DNA of 64,000 nt from NCBI RefSeq assembly GCF_028736155.1, contig NZ_CP117879.1, forward strand, positions 744,001 to 808,000. Direction: 5' to 3'. The position numbers and the translations under genes are program-made. The notes beneath the pieces were generated by a model. That model saw only the letters and a list, made by a program, of their open reading frames with translations. It was not told where the DNA came from and ran no database searches. The stretch's first letter is position 1, and each line of letters begins with the position of its first letter. This DNA is from Flavobacterium sp. KACC 22763 (GTDB lineage Bacteria; Bacteroidota; Bacteroidia; Flavobacteriales; Flavobacteriaceae). Positions 3,032 to 8,919 of this stretch are shown in pieces.

Positions 3032-3162
3032 TGCATTTTAATTAAATTCTTTTTGGTGGTAATACTGAGTTTAATGTTTTGATTTCGAATTATTTACGTT
3101 TTTTGTTCTATGTTCTCTTTTAGAATAGGAATTTTATTTTGATGAATTTTCTTTAAAATAAA

Positions 3163-3195
3163 TTTGGAAAATCAAAAAACAATTCTGAATATTTG
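3163..3195 (+). promoter_or_regulatory. Candidate promoter of the small orphan unit
   Basis: TTTG at 3163-3166 lies 21 nt before AATATTTG (3188-3195), one mismatch from the TAnnTTTG consensus. Transcription would begin near 3202, just upstream of the small reading frame and hairpins described next. Confidence 0.35.
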
Positions 3196-3235
3196 CACAC
3201 GAAAAAAATAATAACCCTTTAAAAACGAAGAAAAA

Positions 3236-3319
3236 ATGTTTGTACTTACATCGACATCACAAAGCTTCACACCAAACGAATTTGGTGTAGCAATTCTTCG
3301 TGGCTTATTTCAATCTTAG
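3236..3319 (+). CDS. Possible 27-residue peptide
   Basis: ATG follows an A-rich tract four nt after the outer-stem arm at 3225-3232, and TAG ends at 3319. The peptide begins MFVLTSTSQSFTPNEF and ends GLFQS, with no recognisable signal or membrane segment. The codons overlap the 8-bp hairpin at 3269-3288, so translation and folding would compete. It may be a leader peptide or chance; coding status is unproven. Confidence 0.3.
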   Translation: MFVLTSTSQSFTPNEFGVAILRGLFQS

Positions 3320-3340
3320 AAATATATTTTTAGATATATA

Positions 3341-3377
3341 AAAAAGCCCGAAGACAATAAGTTTCGGGCTTTTTTTA
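3341..3377 (+). terminator. Terminator of the small orphan unit
   Basis: A 12-bp stem, AAAAAGCCCGAA with TTCGGGCTTTTT, carries a 10-nt loop and ends in a run of eight T residues. Confidence 0.9.
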
Positions 3378-3464
3378 TTCTAGACACTTCAAAATTTTCC
3401 CGAAAATCGATTTTAGTATTTATCTGTAAGGATAAAATTTTTAAGCCTTTTTGGCTCTAATTTA

Positions 3465-4244
3465 ATGCGCGATAATTTTTTTATGGAAAATTATACGGTA
3501 GATGAGTATGCATTATGTGCTCGTTTTAAAAGTAAACGAAAAAAGAAAAGATTAGTAAAAGAAGATTTTGAAAAACAATTAATTCAGTTAAGAGAGCTTG
3601 AAGTTGAGCTTTGGAAAAAGCGTAGAGACTTACCATTGGTTCCTTTAGAAATTCCTTATCAAAAAGGCTGGCAACGCAATTTTAAATTAAGAGACGATAT
3701 TGCCAGATCAAGCGAAGCGACATTTTACAGAGAGTTATTGGAAAAAATAAATACATGGCAGTTTTCTCCTGAAAAATCTTTTAAAAGAAAGAAAAAGAGA
3801 AAAAGAAAACATGTGTATGTTGAAAAACTCCAGACTGTAAAAGAATTTTCAGAATGGGAATGGAGAAGTTCTAAACTGGAATTGACCGAAAAAGAAAAAA
3901 CACATTTTTATAAAAGGGAACGTTGGTGCAGCAATTGCAAACGATACAAAATTCATTACGTATTTAATGAACCTTGGCGATATGTGCTTCGTGTTAGCCC
4001 TTATATGATAACACACACCAAAATGGTCGATTCAGATTTAGAAAGTCAAATTCAACTAGTTGACAATTATATTGTTAATCATAATCTGAGAAATAAAATA
4101 AATAGATTAATACACGGCAGTTCTCATAAATGGAGTTACTATGAAAATGAAAATCCAAAAGAGATAAGTCCAATTAAAAATAAAAGTCTGCACACTTTGT
4201 ATCAGCAATACGCAGATGAAATGATAGAAAATCATGGGAAATAA
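3465..4244 (+). CDS. Unknown basic CxxC protein, first gene of the RtcB-PrfH unit
   Basis: A 259-residue protein I do not recognise. It is strongly basic: KSKRKKKR near residues 22-29 and FKRKKKRKRK near 105-115, as expected of a nucleic-acid binder. A single CSNC pair (Cys155, Cys158) in an aromatic, basic context could be half of a metal site or a redox pair. No signal peptide or membrane helix is seen. Its end overlaps the rtcB start by 11 nt, so the two are translationally coupled. An in-frame ATG at 3483 (MENYTVDEY) is an alternative start. By context it may act on ribosomal RNA or another RNA that RtcB repairs; that is inference only. Confidence 0.8.
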   Translation: MRDNFFMENYTVDEYALCARFKSKRKKKRLVKEDFEKQLIQLRELEVELWKKRRDLPLVPLEIPYQKGWQRNFKLRDDIARSSEATFYRELLEKINTWQFSPEKSFKRKKKRKRKHVYVEKLQTVKEFSEWEWRSSKLELTEKEKTHFYKRERWCSNCKRYKIHYVFNEPWRYVLRVSPYMITHTKMVDSDLESQIQLVDNYIVNHNLRNKINRLIHGSSHKWSYYENENPKEISPIKNKSLHTLYQQYADEMIENHGK

Positions 4245-5625
4245 ATTATCTGGAAAAGACCTGATTAAATTAGGTTTTCCAAAGAACAATTCAATAAACA
4301 TTGCCTTAGGGCAGATAAACAGATATAGGAAAAGAGAAAAAAAAGAATCTATTCTAACAGAAGCAAAAGATGTTTTGCTAAATCCTGAAAAGTATGAAGG
4401 AAATGGAACTTGGGGAAAAGTTGCCGAAGGTTTGATTAAGCCTGTTCAAGTTCGAATGCATCAGCTTAAAAATACCAGAGCACCTTTTAAAATTTTTGGC
4501 GAAAATGAAATCGATGAGCAGGCAAAATTTCAACTATATGATTCGTTGAAACTGCCAATTTCTGTTGCTGGGGCTTTGATGCCAGACGCGCACTCAGGTT
4601 ACGGATTGCCAATTGGAGGAGTTTTAGCGACTGACAATGCTGTAATTCCTTATGGAGTTGGTGTCGATATTGGATGCAGAATGAGTCTTTCCATTTTTGA
4701 TTTGCCAGCTTCTCATTTTAAAGGAAAAGAACATCAATTGGAAGCTATTTTGAAAGACAATACCAAATTCGGAATGTATGAAACGCATGCTTCAAGAGTA
4801 GATCATGAAGTGTTTTATAATAGTGGATTTCAAGATATTCCATTATTGAAAAATCTTTTACCAAAAGCCTATAAGCAATTAGGAACTTCTGGAGGAGGAA
4901 ATCATTTTGTAGAATTTGGAATTGCTAAAATTGAAAATCCTGAGAACGAATGGAAGCTTGAAAAAGGTGAGTATTTCGCGGTTCTTTCGCATAGCGGTTC
5001 TCGTGGATTAGGTGCGAATATTGCGAAACATTATACGTATTTGGCAACAAAACAATGTCCGTTACCCAAAAATGTGCAGCATTTGGCGTGGTTAGATTTG
5101 AATACGCACGACGGTCAGGAATACTGGCTGGCGATGAATTTGGCTGGAGAATATGCAAAAGCTTGCCATGATGATATTCACAGAAGAATTGCTAAAGCGA
5201 TAGGGAAAAGAGTAGTGGTAACAATTGAGAATCACCACAATTTTGCTTGGAAAGAAATGGTTAATGGTCAGGAATGTATTGTTCATAGAAAAGGAGCAAC
5301 TCCAGCTAGTGAGGGACAATTAGGAATTATTCCAGGTTCAATGACTGCGCCAGGTTTTATTGTGAAAGGAAAAGGGAATTCTGAAAGTTTGAATTCTGCT
5401 TCGCATGGTGCGGGACGCTTGTTTTCGAGAGCAAAATGCAAAAGCAGTTTTACACAAAGTCAAATCAATAAAGAATTGAAGAAACATGAAGTGACTTTGA
5501 TTGGAGGAAATATTGATGAAGCGCCAATGGCATATAAAGACATTGAAAAAGTAATGGCAAACCAAACCGATCTAGTTGAAGTTCTAGGAACTTTTACGCC
5601 AAAGATTGTTAGAATGGATCGCTAA
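4234..5625 (+). CDS. rtcB: RNA-splicing ligase RtcB
   Basis: A GTP- and Mn2+-dependent ligase that joins RNA 2',3'-cyclic phosphate or 3'-phosphate ends to 5'-OH ends. The core motifs are present: MPDAHSGYGLPIGG (residues 116-129), GVDIGCRM with metal ligand Cys148, GTSGGGNHFVEFG, VLSHSGSRG, and SASHGAGR with His391 as the expected guanylation site. At 463 residues it has an N-terminal extension of about 65 residues before the ligase core. It overlaps the unknown CxxC gene by 11 nt and is followed by prfH after 14 nt. Pairing with prfH points to repair of damaged ribosomal RNA rather than tRNA splicing. Confidence 0.97.
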   Translation: MGNKLSGKDLIKLGFPKNNSINIALGQINRYRKREKKESILTEAKDVLLNPEKYEGNGTWGKVAEGLIKPVQVRMHQLKNTRAPFKIFGENEIDEQAKFQLYDSLKLPISVAGALMPDAHSGYGLPIGGVLATDNAVIPYGVGVDIGCRMSLSIFDLPASHFKGKEHQLEAILKDNTKFGMYETHASRVDHEVFYNSGFQDIPLLKNLLPKAYKQLGTSGGGNHFVEFGIAKIENPENEWKLEKGEYFAVLSHSGSRGLGANIAKHYTYLATKQCPLPKNVQHLAWLDLNTHDGQEYWLAMNLAGEYAKACHDDIHRRIAKAIGKRVVVTIENHHNFAWKEMVNGQECIVHRKGATPASEGQLGIIPGSMTAPGFIVKGKGNSESLNSASHGAGRLFSRAKCKSSFTQSQINKELKKHEVTLIGGNIDEAPMAYKDIEKVMANQTDLVEVLGTFTPKIVRMDR

Positions 5626-5639
5626 AGAAAGGAAAAGCA

Positions 5640-6329
5640 ATGGAAAAAATAATTCAGATAACAGCGGGTCGCGGACCTGCAGAATGCACTTGGGTTGTTG
5701 CCCAAGTGCTTAAAAAAGTCTTGGAAGAAGCCGAAGATCAGAATTTGGATGTGGTTTTACTCCAAAGAGAAAAAGGAGAAGAAAATGGAACGATTGAAAC
5801 TGCATCTATTTCTGTAAAAGGGAAAAATGCCGATATGTTTGTGAAATCTTGGATAGGAACTATTCAATGGATTGGGCAAAGTCAGTTTAGGAAAATGAAC
5901 AAACGCAAAAACTGGTTTGTTGGAATTTTTGAAATTGAACAGCAGGAAAGCAGTTTAGTTTCAGAAAATGATATTCAGTATCAAGCCATGAGAAGTTCAG
6001 GAGCTGGCGGCCAGCATGTGAACAAGGTGAGTTCGGCAATTCGGGCAACACATATTCCGACTGGAATTGCAGTTGTGGCAATGGACAGCCGTTCTCAGCA
6101 TCAAAACAAAAAACTGGCAACAGAAAGATTATTAAAAAAAATAGAAGACGAGAAATTAGTTCAGCTTAAAAATCATGTTGGAAAACAATGGGAAAATCAG
6201 CTTAATGTAGAGCGTGGAAATCCAGTGAGAGTTTTTGCAGGAAGCGATTTTAAGAAGAACAAAGTAGAGAAAAGCTACAAAGGAACTCGTCAGAAATTGA
6301 AAAACGATTTACGAAATGAAAACAACTGA
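5640..6329 (+). CDS. prfH: Peptide chain release factor homologue PrfH
   Basis: A class I release-factor relative of 229 residues, much shorter than RF1/RF2 (about 360). It keeps the peptidyl-tRNA hydrolysis loop GAGGQ (GGQ at residues 123-125) in the usual context RSSGAGGQHVNKVSSAIR, and the C-terminal basic tail. I see no PxT or SPF stop-codon recognition motif. The genes rtcB and prfH are paired in diverse bacteria, and in E. coli the pair has been linked to survival of colicin E3-type cleavage of 16S rRNA: PrfH frees the peptide and RtcB reseals the rRNA. The 14-nt gap after rtcB and the 14-nt overlap with the next gene indicate one operon. Confidence 0.94.
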   Translation: MEKIIQITAGRGPAECTWVVAQVLKKVLEEAEDQNLDVVLLQREKGEENGTIETASISVKGKNADMFVKSWIGTIQWIGQSQFRKMNKRKNWFVGIFEIEQQESSLVSENDIQYQAMRSSGAGGQHVNKVSSAIRATHIPTGIAVVAMDSRSQHQNKKLATERLLKKIEDEKLVQLKNHVGKQWENQLNVERGNPVRVFAGSDFKKNKVEKSYKGTRQKLKNDLRNENN

Positions 6330-6849
6330 TAAATACCTTTTTCAAGCCTTGGATAATTATCCGTTTTGGCTTGAAGGAACAATTGAATCTTTAGATTATG
6401 CTTTTTCTTATGATGATAAAAATACAATGGTTTTGTGTTTATACGGAAGAATTCAGGCAGAGCAATTAATGAATTATGAAGAAGCTAAATCTTATTTTCA
6501 GCAAGCATTATCGATTAATATTCATGCTCTTGAAGTTTATCCTTATTATTTAAAAACGTTGATTTTAAACGAAGATTACGAAGAAGCGCGAAAACTTATT
6601 GATTTTGCCTTAACGGTAAAAGGAATTAATAAATCAGAGATTTATCTTAAGAAAGCAATTCTGCTAGAAGTGCAACATGAATTTAAAGATGCTTTAAAAG
6701 AAATTAAGCAGGCAAAATTATATTCTATTCAGCATGATTATGATTCGGGAATTAGTGAGGTTGAGAAAAGAATTAAAGATAAAATTGATTTGCTGAAAAA
6801 GAAGAAAGAGAAAAAATCTAAGAAAGGTTCTAAAAAGAAATCGAAATGA
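6316..6849 (+). CDS. TPR-repeat protein, last gene of the RtcB-PrfH unit
   Basis: A 177-residue soluble helical protein. Residues about 40-75 (LYGRIQAEQL, NYEEAKSYFQQALSIN) and the following segments (EDYEEARKLIDFAL, EFKDALKEIKQAK) read as three or so tetratricopeptide repeats. The last 20 residues are almost entirely Lys, Ser and Glu, ending KKGSKKKSK, and could contact RNA. Its ATG lies inside prfH, 14 nt before the prfH stop, so it is translationally coupled to it. A terminator follows directly. A role as scaffold or adaptor for the repair enzymes is inferred from position only. Confidence 0.85.
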   Translation: MKTTDKYLFQALDNYPFWLEGTIESLDYAFSYDDKNTMVLCLYGRIQAEQLMNYEEAKSYFQQALSINIHALEVYPYYLKTLILNEDYEEARKLIDFALTVKGINKSEIYLKKAILLEVQHEFKDALKEIKQAKLYSIQHDYDSGISEVEKRIKDKIDLLKKKKEKKSKKGSKKKSK

Positions 6850-6860
6850 TTTTGATAAAA

Positions 6861-6890
6861 AAAAAGATGCAATTTGCATCTTTTTTTTTA
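6861..6890 (+). terminator. Terminator of the RtcB-PrfH unit
   Basis: GATGCAA with TTGCATC (6866-6880), flanked by A runs on the left and nine T residues on the right. Confidence 0.85.
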
Positions 6891-6903: not shown

Positions 6904-6998
6904 CCTGCAAGGTTTTCAAAACCTTGTAGGTTTGTTATTTAGAATCTAGCATTTTTAACTAAAGTGAAATACCTACAAGGTTTTGAAAACCTTGCAGG
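6904..6998. repeat. Inverted pair of a 27-bp palindromic repeat
   Basis: A 27-nt unit at 6904-6930 (starts CCTGCAAGG, ends CCTTGTAGG) recurs as its exact reverse complement at 6972-6998, 41 nt away. Each unit is itself an imperfect palindrome. It lies between convergent transcription units and could fold as one long hairpin or two short ones. Confidence 0.9.
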
Positions 6999-8767: not shown

Positions 8768-8872
8768 AGTTTTTAGCCCAGATGGAAATGGAAACCCCGG
8801 ACTTATATTTGTTACATTTTTTTGGTGTAAAAGAGCGACCAACGGAAGCTCCTTTTATGCCTTAAAAAATTA

Positions 8873-8880
8873 CAAATATA
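8873..8880 (-). promoter_or_regulatory. Candidate -7 box for miaA
   Basis: Read on the minus strand the sequence is TATATTTG, a full match to TAnnTTTG. It lies about 105 nt upstream of the miaA start. No clear upstream TTTG element was found. Confidence 0.4.
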
Positions 8881-8919
8881 AGGAGGAGTTGGAATGTACA
8901 GCTGGATTAGCTTCTTAAA

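Follow-up and report, generated by a model that had tools for sequence, protein, structure and literature searches.

In Escherichia coli, the RNA ligase RtcB2 and release factor H (PrfH) protect the cell from colicin E3, and that report and the work it cites describe peptide release by PrfH and religation of the cleaved 16S rRNA by RtcB (PMC9223846). Further partners of RFH-RtcB pairs were listed in 2019; they comprise tetratricopeptide repeat (TPR) proteins, Pol-beta nucleotidyltransferases (NTases), zinc-ribbon proteins and charged proteins without homologues, and a scaffold function was suggested for the TPR protein (PMC6514570). The portions of the literature consulted name no regulator for RtcB-PrfH systems, and how cells sense broken ribosomes and induce rRNA repair appears open for them. 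Here we analyze a locus of Flavobacterium sp. KACC 22763 in a 64,000-nucleotide (nt) stretch of contig NZ_CP117879.1 (positions 744,001 to 808,000, forward strand), hereafter the window. Four genes at 3465-6849 encode a basic protein that we call YCX, RtcB, PrfH and a TPR protein, together a probable ribosome-damage repair kit as judged from the analyses below. Upstream, at 3225-3376, lies a short leader open reading frame (ORF) followed by a terminator, which was absent from the original prediction made from this DNA. We put the probability at roughly 0.72 that the four genes form a ribosome-damage repair operon under the control of a leader-peptide transcription attenuator.

In the attenuators of the trp and his amino-acid operons, helices 1:2, 2:3 and 3:4 compete within an RNA that carries a leader ORF. 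The leader ORF and terminator at 3225-3376 appear to form a classic three-helix attenuator of this kind, in which the helices exclude each other. For comparison, 85 loci (Flavobacteriales-type and sampled PrfH loci) were scanned, of which 82 carried the leader; removal of five exact duplicates left 77 leaders (76 distinct). The loci lacking it were L016, with just 23 nt of upstream sequence, and L139 and L140, which have the second leader type described below. The parts of the leader region in the window are as follows.

3163-3195, + strand: putative promoter-like elements, TTTG (3163-3166) and TATTTG (3190-3195), with similar stretches in most relatives compared
3225-3231, + strand: segment 1 (A CGAAG A), partner of segment 2, immediately before the leader start codon; core in 77/77 leaders
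3236-3319, + strand: leader ORF MFVLTSTSQSFTPNEFGVAILRGLFQS, 27 codons, found in relatives by tblastn, open in 77/77 leaders
3269-3288, + strand: hairpin within the leader ORF (ACACCAAA / TTTGGTGT) in the minimum-energy fold
3296-3310, + strand: segment 2 (CTTCGTGGCTTATTT, Leu-Arg-Gly-Leu-Phe codons), 5' strand of the antiterminator; 2:3 pairing counted in 77 leaders
3340-3353, + strand: segment 3 (AAAAAAGCCCGAAG), common to antiterminator and terminator, from pairing counts and fold
3362-3376, + strand: segment 4 (TTTCGGGC and T-run), 3' arm of the terminator; 3:4 pairing counted in 77 leaders
3377-3404, + strand: conserved 28-nt stretch past the terminator (ATTCTAGACACTTCAAAATTTTCCCGAA), seen by eye in most Flavobacterium leaders compared

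The promoter-like elements resemble the Bacteroidota promoter consensus, which reads TTTG at -33 and TAnnTTTG at -7. The leader terminator spans 3346-3376, and the stretch behind it (3377-3404) ends in CCCGAA, a possible pairing partner of terminator arm 4. By eye, the hairpin at 3269-3288 is built from other letters that are still complementary in L051 and L126, the leaders for which this was noted. The leader ORF is 25, 27 or 28 codons long and nothing else, and the spacer behind it occurs in seven lengths; its frame is open in all 77 leaders, compared with 32 and 43 for the remaining frames. Rfam 15 gave no family at the gathering score for 3100-3600, the top hit being His_leader (30.6 against 49 bits), and by eye the leader peptides show no series of control codons for a single amino acid.

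The five pairs of the 1:2 core, CGAAG:CUUCG, are kept in all 77 leaders and are flanked by a pair that is A-U in 67, C-G in eight and U-G in two. All ten positions of 2:3 are paired in 68 leaders and the first seven in every leader; seven of the nine positions of 3:4 are kept throughout and the remaining two in 76 and 72 leaders. Changes in segment 3 are matched on both of its partners. In seven leaders (six from f2, a label for another family of the same order, and L130) a G to A change goes along with C to U in both segments 2 and 4. In L142 and L143, C to U is matched by G to A in segments 2 and 4, and in L147, A to G is accompanied by U to C in segment 4 and forms a G-U wobble with segment 2. 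L151 is an exception with a C-A mismatch in 2:3. When counted on alignment A2 (76 distinct rows, those of L142 and L143 being misaligned at segment 3), 98.6% of the cells in 2:3 and 98.5% of those in 3:4 are paired, and cells changed on both sides number 8 and 9, respectively, compared with a mean of 1.3 in shuffled alignments in either case. Sliding the partner by 1-3 columns lowers pairing to 12.6-66%. In 77/77 leaders, no other 14-mer tried from the ORF pairs as well with segment 3 as segment 2 does.

The leader of the window folds with -41.7 kcal/mol (z -4.99, 0/200 shuffles). Folding with segment 4 absent and with ribosome masks of assumed size predicts an effect of ribosome position: 2:3 forms with P > 0.5 in 77/77 leaders when the mask lies at the start, in 69/77 when it lies near codon 8 and in 4/77 when it lies at the stop. 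We infer that transcription is controlled in the cell along these lines. A healthy ribosome would read the 27-codon leader to its stop and occupy the Leu-Arg-Gly codons of segment 2; with segment 2 covered, 2:3 could not form, terminator 3:4 would arise and transcription would end ahead of the genes. If ribosomes stalled or failed soon after entering the leader, which cut rRNA would be expected to cause, 2:3 could form, which would block the terminator and allow the operon to be transcribed.

The genes that would be switched on in this way are all located on the + strand, the first running from 3465 or 3483 to 4244.

3483-4244, + strand: YCX, basic protein of 253 amino acids (aa), net charge +19, 135 homologues at E <= 0.001
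4234-5625, + strand: RtcB RNA ligase, Pfam PF01139 with 285.5 bits against a cut-off of 27
5640-6329, + strand: PrfH, NCBIfam TIGR03072 with 231.6 bits against a cut-off of 166.65, AGGQH (GGQ) in the sequence
6316-6849, + strand: TPR protein with Lys-rich tail, family matched at E <= 1.2e-36 in 29/395 genomes
6867-6889, + strand: operon terminator (GATGCAATTTGCATC and T-run), read by eye from the sequence

YCX probably starts at ATG 3483, where most of the aligned homologues begin. The coordinates confirm the original prediction of a four-gene unit with, in the order YCX, RtcB, PrfH and TPR, an 11-nt overlap, a 14-nt gap and a 14-nt overlap, and by eye a closing terminator is present at 6867-6889, which has no entry in the scan that gave the 27-nt repeat described below. 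The identification of RtcB and of a PrfH with GGQ likewise holds, both families being matched above their cut-offs, and in the Protein Data Bank (PDB) PrfH matches 9mor_A, 'Peptide chain release factor H' (E 1.5e-77). A Lys-tailed TPR protein had also been proposed: the Lys-rich tail is there, and TPR models match the window copy below the Pfam cut-offs (best TPR_2, 25 against 27 bits); the related protein of L205 exceeds its cut-off (TPR_19, 40.5 against 25 bits). A stretch does precede the RtcB domain, as had been pointed out, and it is nothing special, since the second RtcB encoded elsewhere in this genome (a single 5.56-Mb contig; 51% identity, 480 aa) has one as well. The window RtcB falls short of the cut-off of TIGR03073 'release_rtcB', the RtcB2 subgroup (141.8 against 271.8 bits). 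PADLOC anti-phage models matched none of the four proteins at E <= 1.

The neighbours of these genes were surveyed in two samples. The first consists of 79 named loci, the best 79 of 208 confirmed stretches obtained when alignment A1 (34 YCX sequences) was used to scan one genome per species; presence of rtcB, PrfH and TPR was scored by tblastn with the window proteins, and absence refers here and below to the fetched stretch. The second consists of 395 Bacteroidota genomes including that of the window, 28 of which contain PrfH above the curated cut-off (26 of them Flavobacteriales). rtcB lies directly 3' of YCX in 77/79 named loci, the exceptions being the Pedobacter loci L069 and L081 with no match for rtcB or prfH. 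PrfH was found in 67/79 and TPR in 55/79, with TPR matches among these 79 loci confined to Flavobacterium and close relatives; the best-matching loci are from Flavobacterium species. YCX occurs in 12/395 genomes, all of them among the 28 with PrfH, and is thus optional. Two of these matches are remote (best E 1.2e-7 and 1.1e-4), and hhalign supports their homology (97%, E 7.8e-11). At the same chromosomal site, L129, L135 and L137 have the operon without YCX. The TPR profile, some of whose rows come from the searched genomes themselves, matches 39/395 genomes at E 1e-6 and 29/395 at E <= 1.2e-36; all 26 Flavobacteriales PrfH genomes are among the 29, and TPR follows prfH in the window and in 25/27 other PrfH loci. 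On this evidence from gene neighbourhood, both flanking families are part of the RtcB-PrfH system, because they are conserved beside rtcB and prfH across the named loci and the sampled genomes.

The original prediction that the two flanking families are conserved beside rtcB-prfH is borne out. It had also regarded them as extra parts extending a two-gene system; they do belong to it, YCX is optional, and such partners had been listed before (PMC6514570). Relatives carry additional genes: among the named loci, 67 contain both rtcB and prfH, the gap between the two measures 450-700 nt in 29 of these, and the inserts encode a multi-CxxC protein (29/79 named loci, 6/27 sampled PrfH loci) or an NTase-like protein (1/79 and 7/27, respectively). 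The family matches of these inserts are weak, one NTase being slightly over a Pfam cut-off, and neither insert gene is present in the window operon. Within the system, PrfH would free the peptide held by a damaged ribosome, whose rRNA would be resealed by RtcB. The TPR protein would be the constant partner, probably a scaffold.

With the leader peptide as tblastn query, the leader was found upstream of the operon in relatives, YCX-less operons included. It precedes the operon in 26/26 Flavobacteriales PrfH genomes, with or without YCX. A strict leader pattern has a single hit in the genome of Flavobacterium sp. KACC 22763, at the window, and among 390 Bacteroidota genomes it finds 16/16 PrfH genomes of the genus Flavobacterium and 7/8 of f2; the eighth f2 genome (G095) and two genomes of a genus labelled g2 contain leader variants recognized by eye. 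In total, the strict pattern hit 48/390 genomes, 23 of which are PrfH genomes with the leader and 25 are others, and a reversed control pattern also hits some genomes. A looser pattern yielded 25 places in 179 genomes of the family, of which three were already in the set and 12, chosen by eye as leader-like, were fetched. A TPR gene of the same family lies downstream in 11 of the 12 fetched loci. Three of these (L196, L206 and L207) contain rtcB-prfH and TPR, and L198 prfH and TPR; seven, from other genera, combine leader and TPR with no PrfH in the stretch, and in six of these a divergent RtcB lies further downstream. In the remaining fetched locus, L204, the leader is followed by a PcfJ-like gene. 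Leader and TPR without prfH also occur together in L193 (G226) and, as an LRN variant, in L194 (G367), and in L195 (G335) genes for a PcfJ-like protein, RtcB and TPR follow what by eye is another possible attenuator. Of the 13 LR[D/G] leaders (L193 and L196-L207), 11 have helix 2:3 fully paired over nine positions, a value that is partly imposed by the search pattern.

A second leader type was found in 21/24 loci from Sphingobacteriales, Chitinophagaceae and unclassified relatives. It consists of a 14-15 codon ORF (approximately MTExxYIS[PS]LSxxA, picked via an IS[PST][LPF] filter) located 142-253 nt ahead of YCX or rtcB and followed by conserved RNA that has no consistent T-run terminator. 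The corresponding pattern gave six hits in 61 genomes. In G122 and G422 the ORF precedes rtcB-prfH, in G416 a start-less leader-like frame stands immediately before a broken rtcB, and the stretches around the other three contain no match for rtcB, prfH or YCX. In L189, rtcB and prfH matches are split over several frames behind a start-less leader-like frame, perhaps a decaying operon. Short ORFs were also observed in more remote loci. On E. coli plasmid NZ_AP023208.1 (L209:1191-1238), a Shine-Dalgarno sequence AAGGAGGT and a 15-codon ORF MTNPLSMTLCRPFQD lie upstream of rtcB2-prfH and are followed by complementary stretches; the ORF is identical in a 93.5%-identical allele (L213) and is possibly another leader. 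An Aureibacter plasmid (L208:1845-1877) has the short ORF MLVYHSNIAL with a good Shine-Dalgarno sequence upstream of rtcB-prfH, several unremarkable short ORFs are present in Thiodictyon (L210), and no comparable short ORF is listed upstream in Skermanella (L211). We see an even chance that the LR[G/D/N] leader serves Flavobacteriales as a general sensor of ribosome health, a single cis RNA switch that responds when ribosomes do not get to the end of a short test ORF and then opens a modular repair set of YCX, PcfJ-like protein, RtcB, zinc-ribbon protein, NTase, PrfH, TPR and divergent RtcB, together or apart, and that Sphingobacteriales and their relatives use an unrelated leader ORF for the same task.

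Several points weigh against an attenuator that responds to damaged ribosomes. One 2:3 pair is lost in 9/77 leaders. Most helix columns are near-invariant, so that shuffling by itself, which does not remove shared ancestry, leaves pairing at about 97.5% of cells; in 3:4, the count of further pair types does not exceed that of shuffles (377/500 as high). With segment 4 absent and no mask at all, 2:3 is still favoured (P > 0.5) in 76/77 leaders, and the switch may therefore report any lack of leader translation and not damage specifically. Selection on the peptide is weak, with a pN/pS of 0.60 (codons 2-19, 52 distinct 27-codon leaders) next to values of 0.66 and 0.97 for the alternative frames of the same leaders. 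Of the 12 distant leaders fetched, three have CGAAG directly before the start and nine lack it. Finally, there may be an independent promoter between the leader terminator and the first gene.

The attenuator could instead sense ribosome-targeting antibiotics via a drug-dependent arrest peptide, so that the operon would mainly serve drug stress. Listeria HflXr is under such an attenuator with an RLR peptide, RLR being the motif of macrolide arrest peptides (PMC6310831), and RLR is found in 8/77 leaders, all from f2 (L144-L151). It is absent from the window leader and from 68/76 others, the peptide is poorly conserved, and RNA pairing accounts for the conservation of the LRG codons. Moreover, a ribosome halted on the LRG codons should cover segment 2 and thereby favour the terminator. 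We regard this explanation as unlikely. The upstream element might also be a separate gene for a small RNA or small protein that ends in its own terminator and does not regulate the operon. It has its own promoter-like start, ORF and terminator, and terminated leader RNAs of attenuators look identical to small RNAs. However, the 5' arm of the terminator covaries both with ORF codons and with the 3' arm, for which an ordinary terminator has no need, and the element stays ahead of operons that differ in content and surroundings, which makes an independent gene improbable.

A different question concerns YCX, which might be a nuclease- or toxin-like effector whose damage RtcB-PrfH repairs, and not a protective factor. 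In favour of an effector, YCX is a fast-evolving, exchangeable and optional gene beside a conserved repair enzyme. Median pairwise identity over 53 loci is 69% for YCX, 94% for RtcB, 87% for PrfH and 80% for TPR, and of the 488 pairs whose RtcB identity reaches 95% or more, 68 show less than 62% in YCX; going by these identities, YCX alleles are exchanged between genomes with near-identical RtcB. The structure prediction called for earlier gave an AlphaFold model of fairly good confidence (pLDDT 84.9) and no usable structural match, as neither PDB nor viral folds were hit with confidence. A weak HEPN_AbiA_CTD match (E 0.017) in a single one of the 34 homologues is likely due to chance. The window copy matches no Pfam, NCBIfam or PADLOC family at E <= 1, and solo YCX without adjacent rtcB persists in the two Pedobacter loci, both of which argue against a toxin; we judge this role to be rather improbable. 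Instead, YCX would bind RNA or ribosomes as an optional and exchangeable specificity factor that fits the system to particular attackers. The label 'CxxC protein' has to be dropped: among the 34 aligned homologues the first Cys is present in 12 and the second in two, and both occur together only in the window protein (CSNC) and P0047. In L069 and L081 (from 8001) the stand-alone YCX is followed by unrelated genes; L069 retains a leader ORF, MTAYIYISSPSEIA, and none was found upstream of YCX in L081. That the four genes are mere neighbours, with TPR and YCX in unrelated housekeeping roles, is highly improbable: either of these two can be found in stretches that lack rtcB or prfH, and in nearly every locus examined they are coupled to rtcB, prfH or the same leader type.

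Downstream of the operon, a 27-nt palindromic repeat, CCTGCAAGGTTTTCAAAACCTTGTAGG, occurs in two inverted copies at 6904-6998 between the TPR gene and the next gene, and Rfam places a Flavo-1 RNA at 8771-8912 of the window, marginally above the gathering score (42.6 against 42 bits).

If the proposed mechanism is true, a cis attenuator with a short ORF on which ribosomes are tested would be a simple answer to how rRNA repair is induced, and the leader offers a sequence handle for finding more repair genes (TPR, YCX, PcfJ-like) independently of their neighbourhood. The attenuator seems to be a new part: no report of it was found in the literature searched, and the main text of PMC6514570 contains neither 'leader' nor 'attenuat'. 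The four-gene unit represents a new member of a system already described. It shares with E. coli RtcB2-PrfH the order of ligase gene and prfH and the enzyme families, and differs by the additional YCX and TPR genes and by an RtcB below the TIGR03073 cut-off (PMC9223846). The extended system with TPR and charged partners is already known; matched by description, the accessory types correspond to TPR, to both insert genes of the relatives and probably, as item 4, to YCX (PMC6514570). The attenuator combines a leader ORF with competing helices just as those of amino-acid operons do, which in Flavobacterium have been reported upstream of biosynthesis operons of F. psychrophilum (PMC9723704). Here, however, there is no control-codon run and the operon makes no amino acid. 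In the Listeria HflXr attenuator rli80, leader ORF, antiterminator and terminator likewise control a factor for stalled ribosomes, but in another phylum, with a 14-aa RLR arrest peptide, in an antibiotic-specific manner and with a ribosome splitter instead of RNA repair as the target (PMC6310831). RtcR-controlled rtcBA is likewise an RNA repair operon induced by RNA damage; its sensor is a transcription activator that binds tRNA halves, whereas the sensor proposed here would be a cis RNA switch (PMC7790460).

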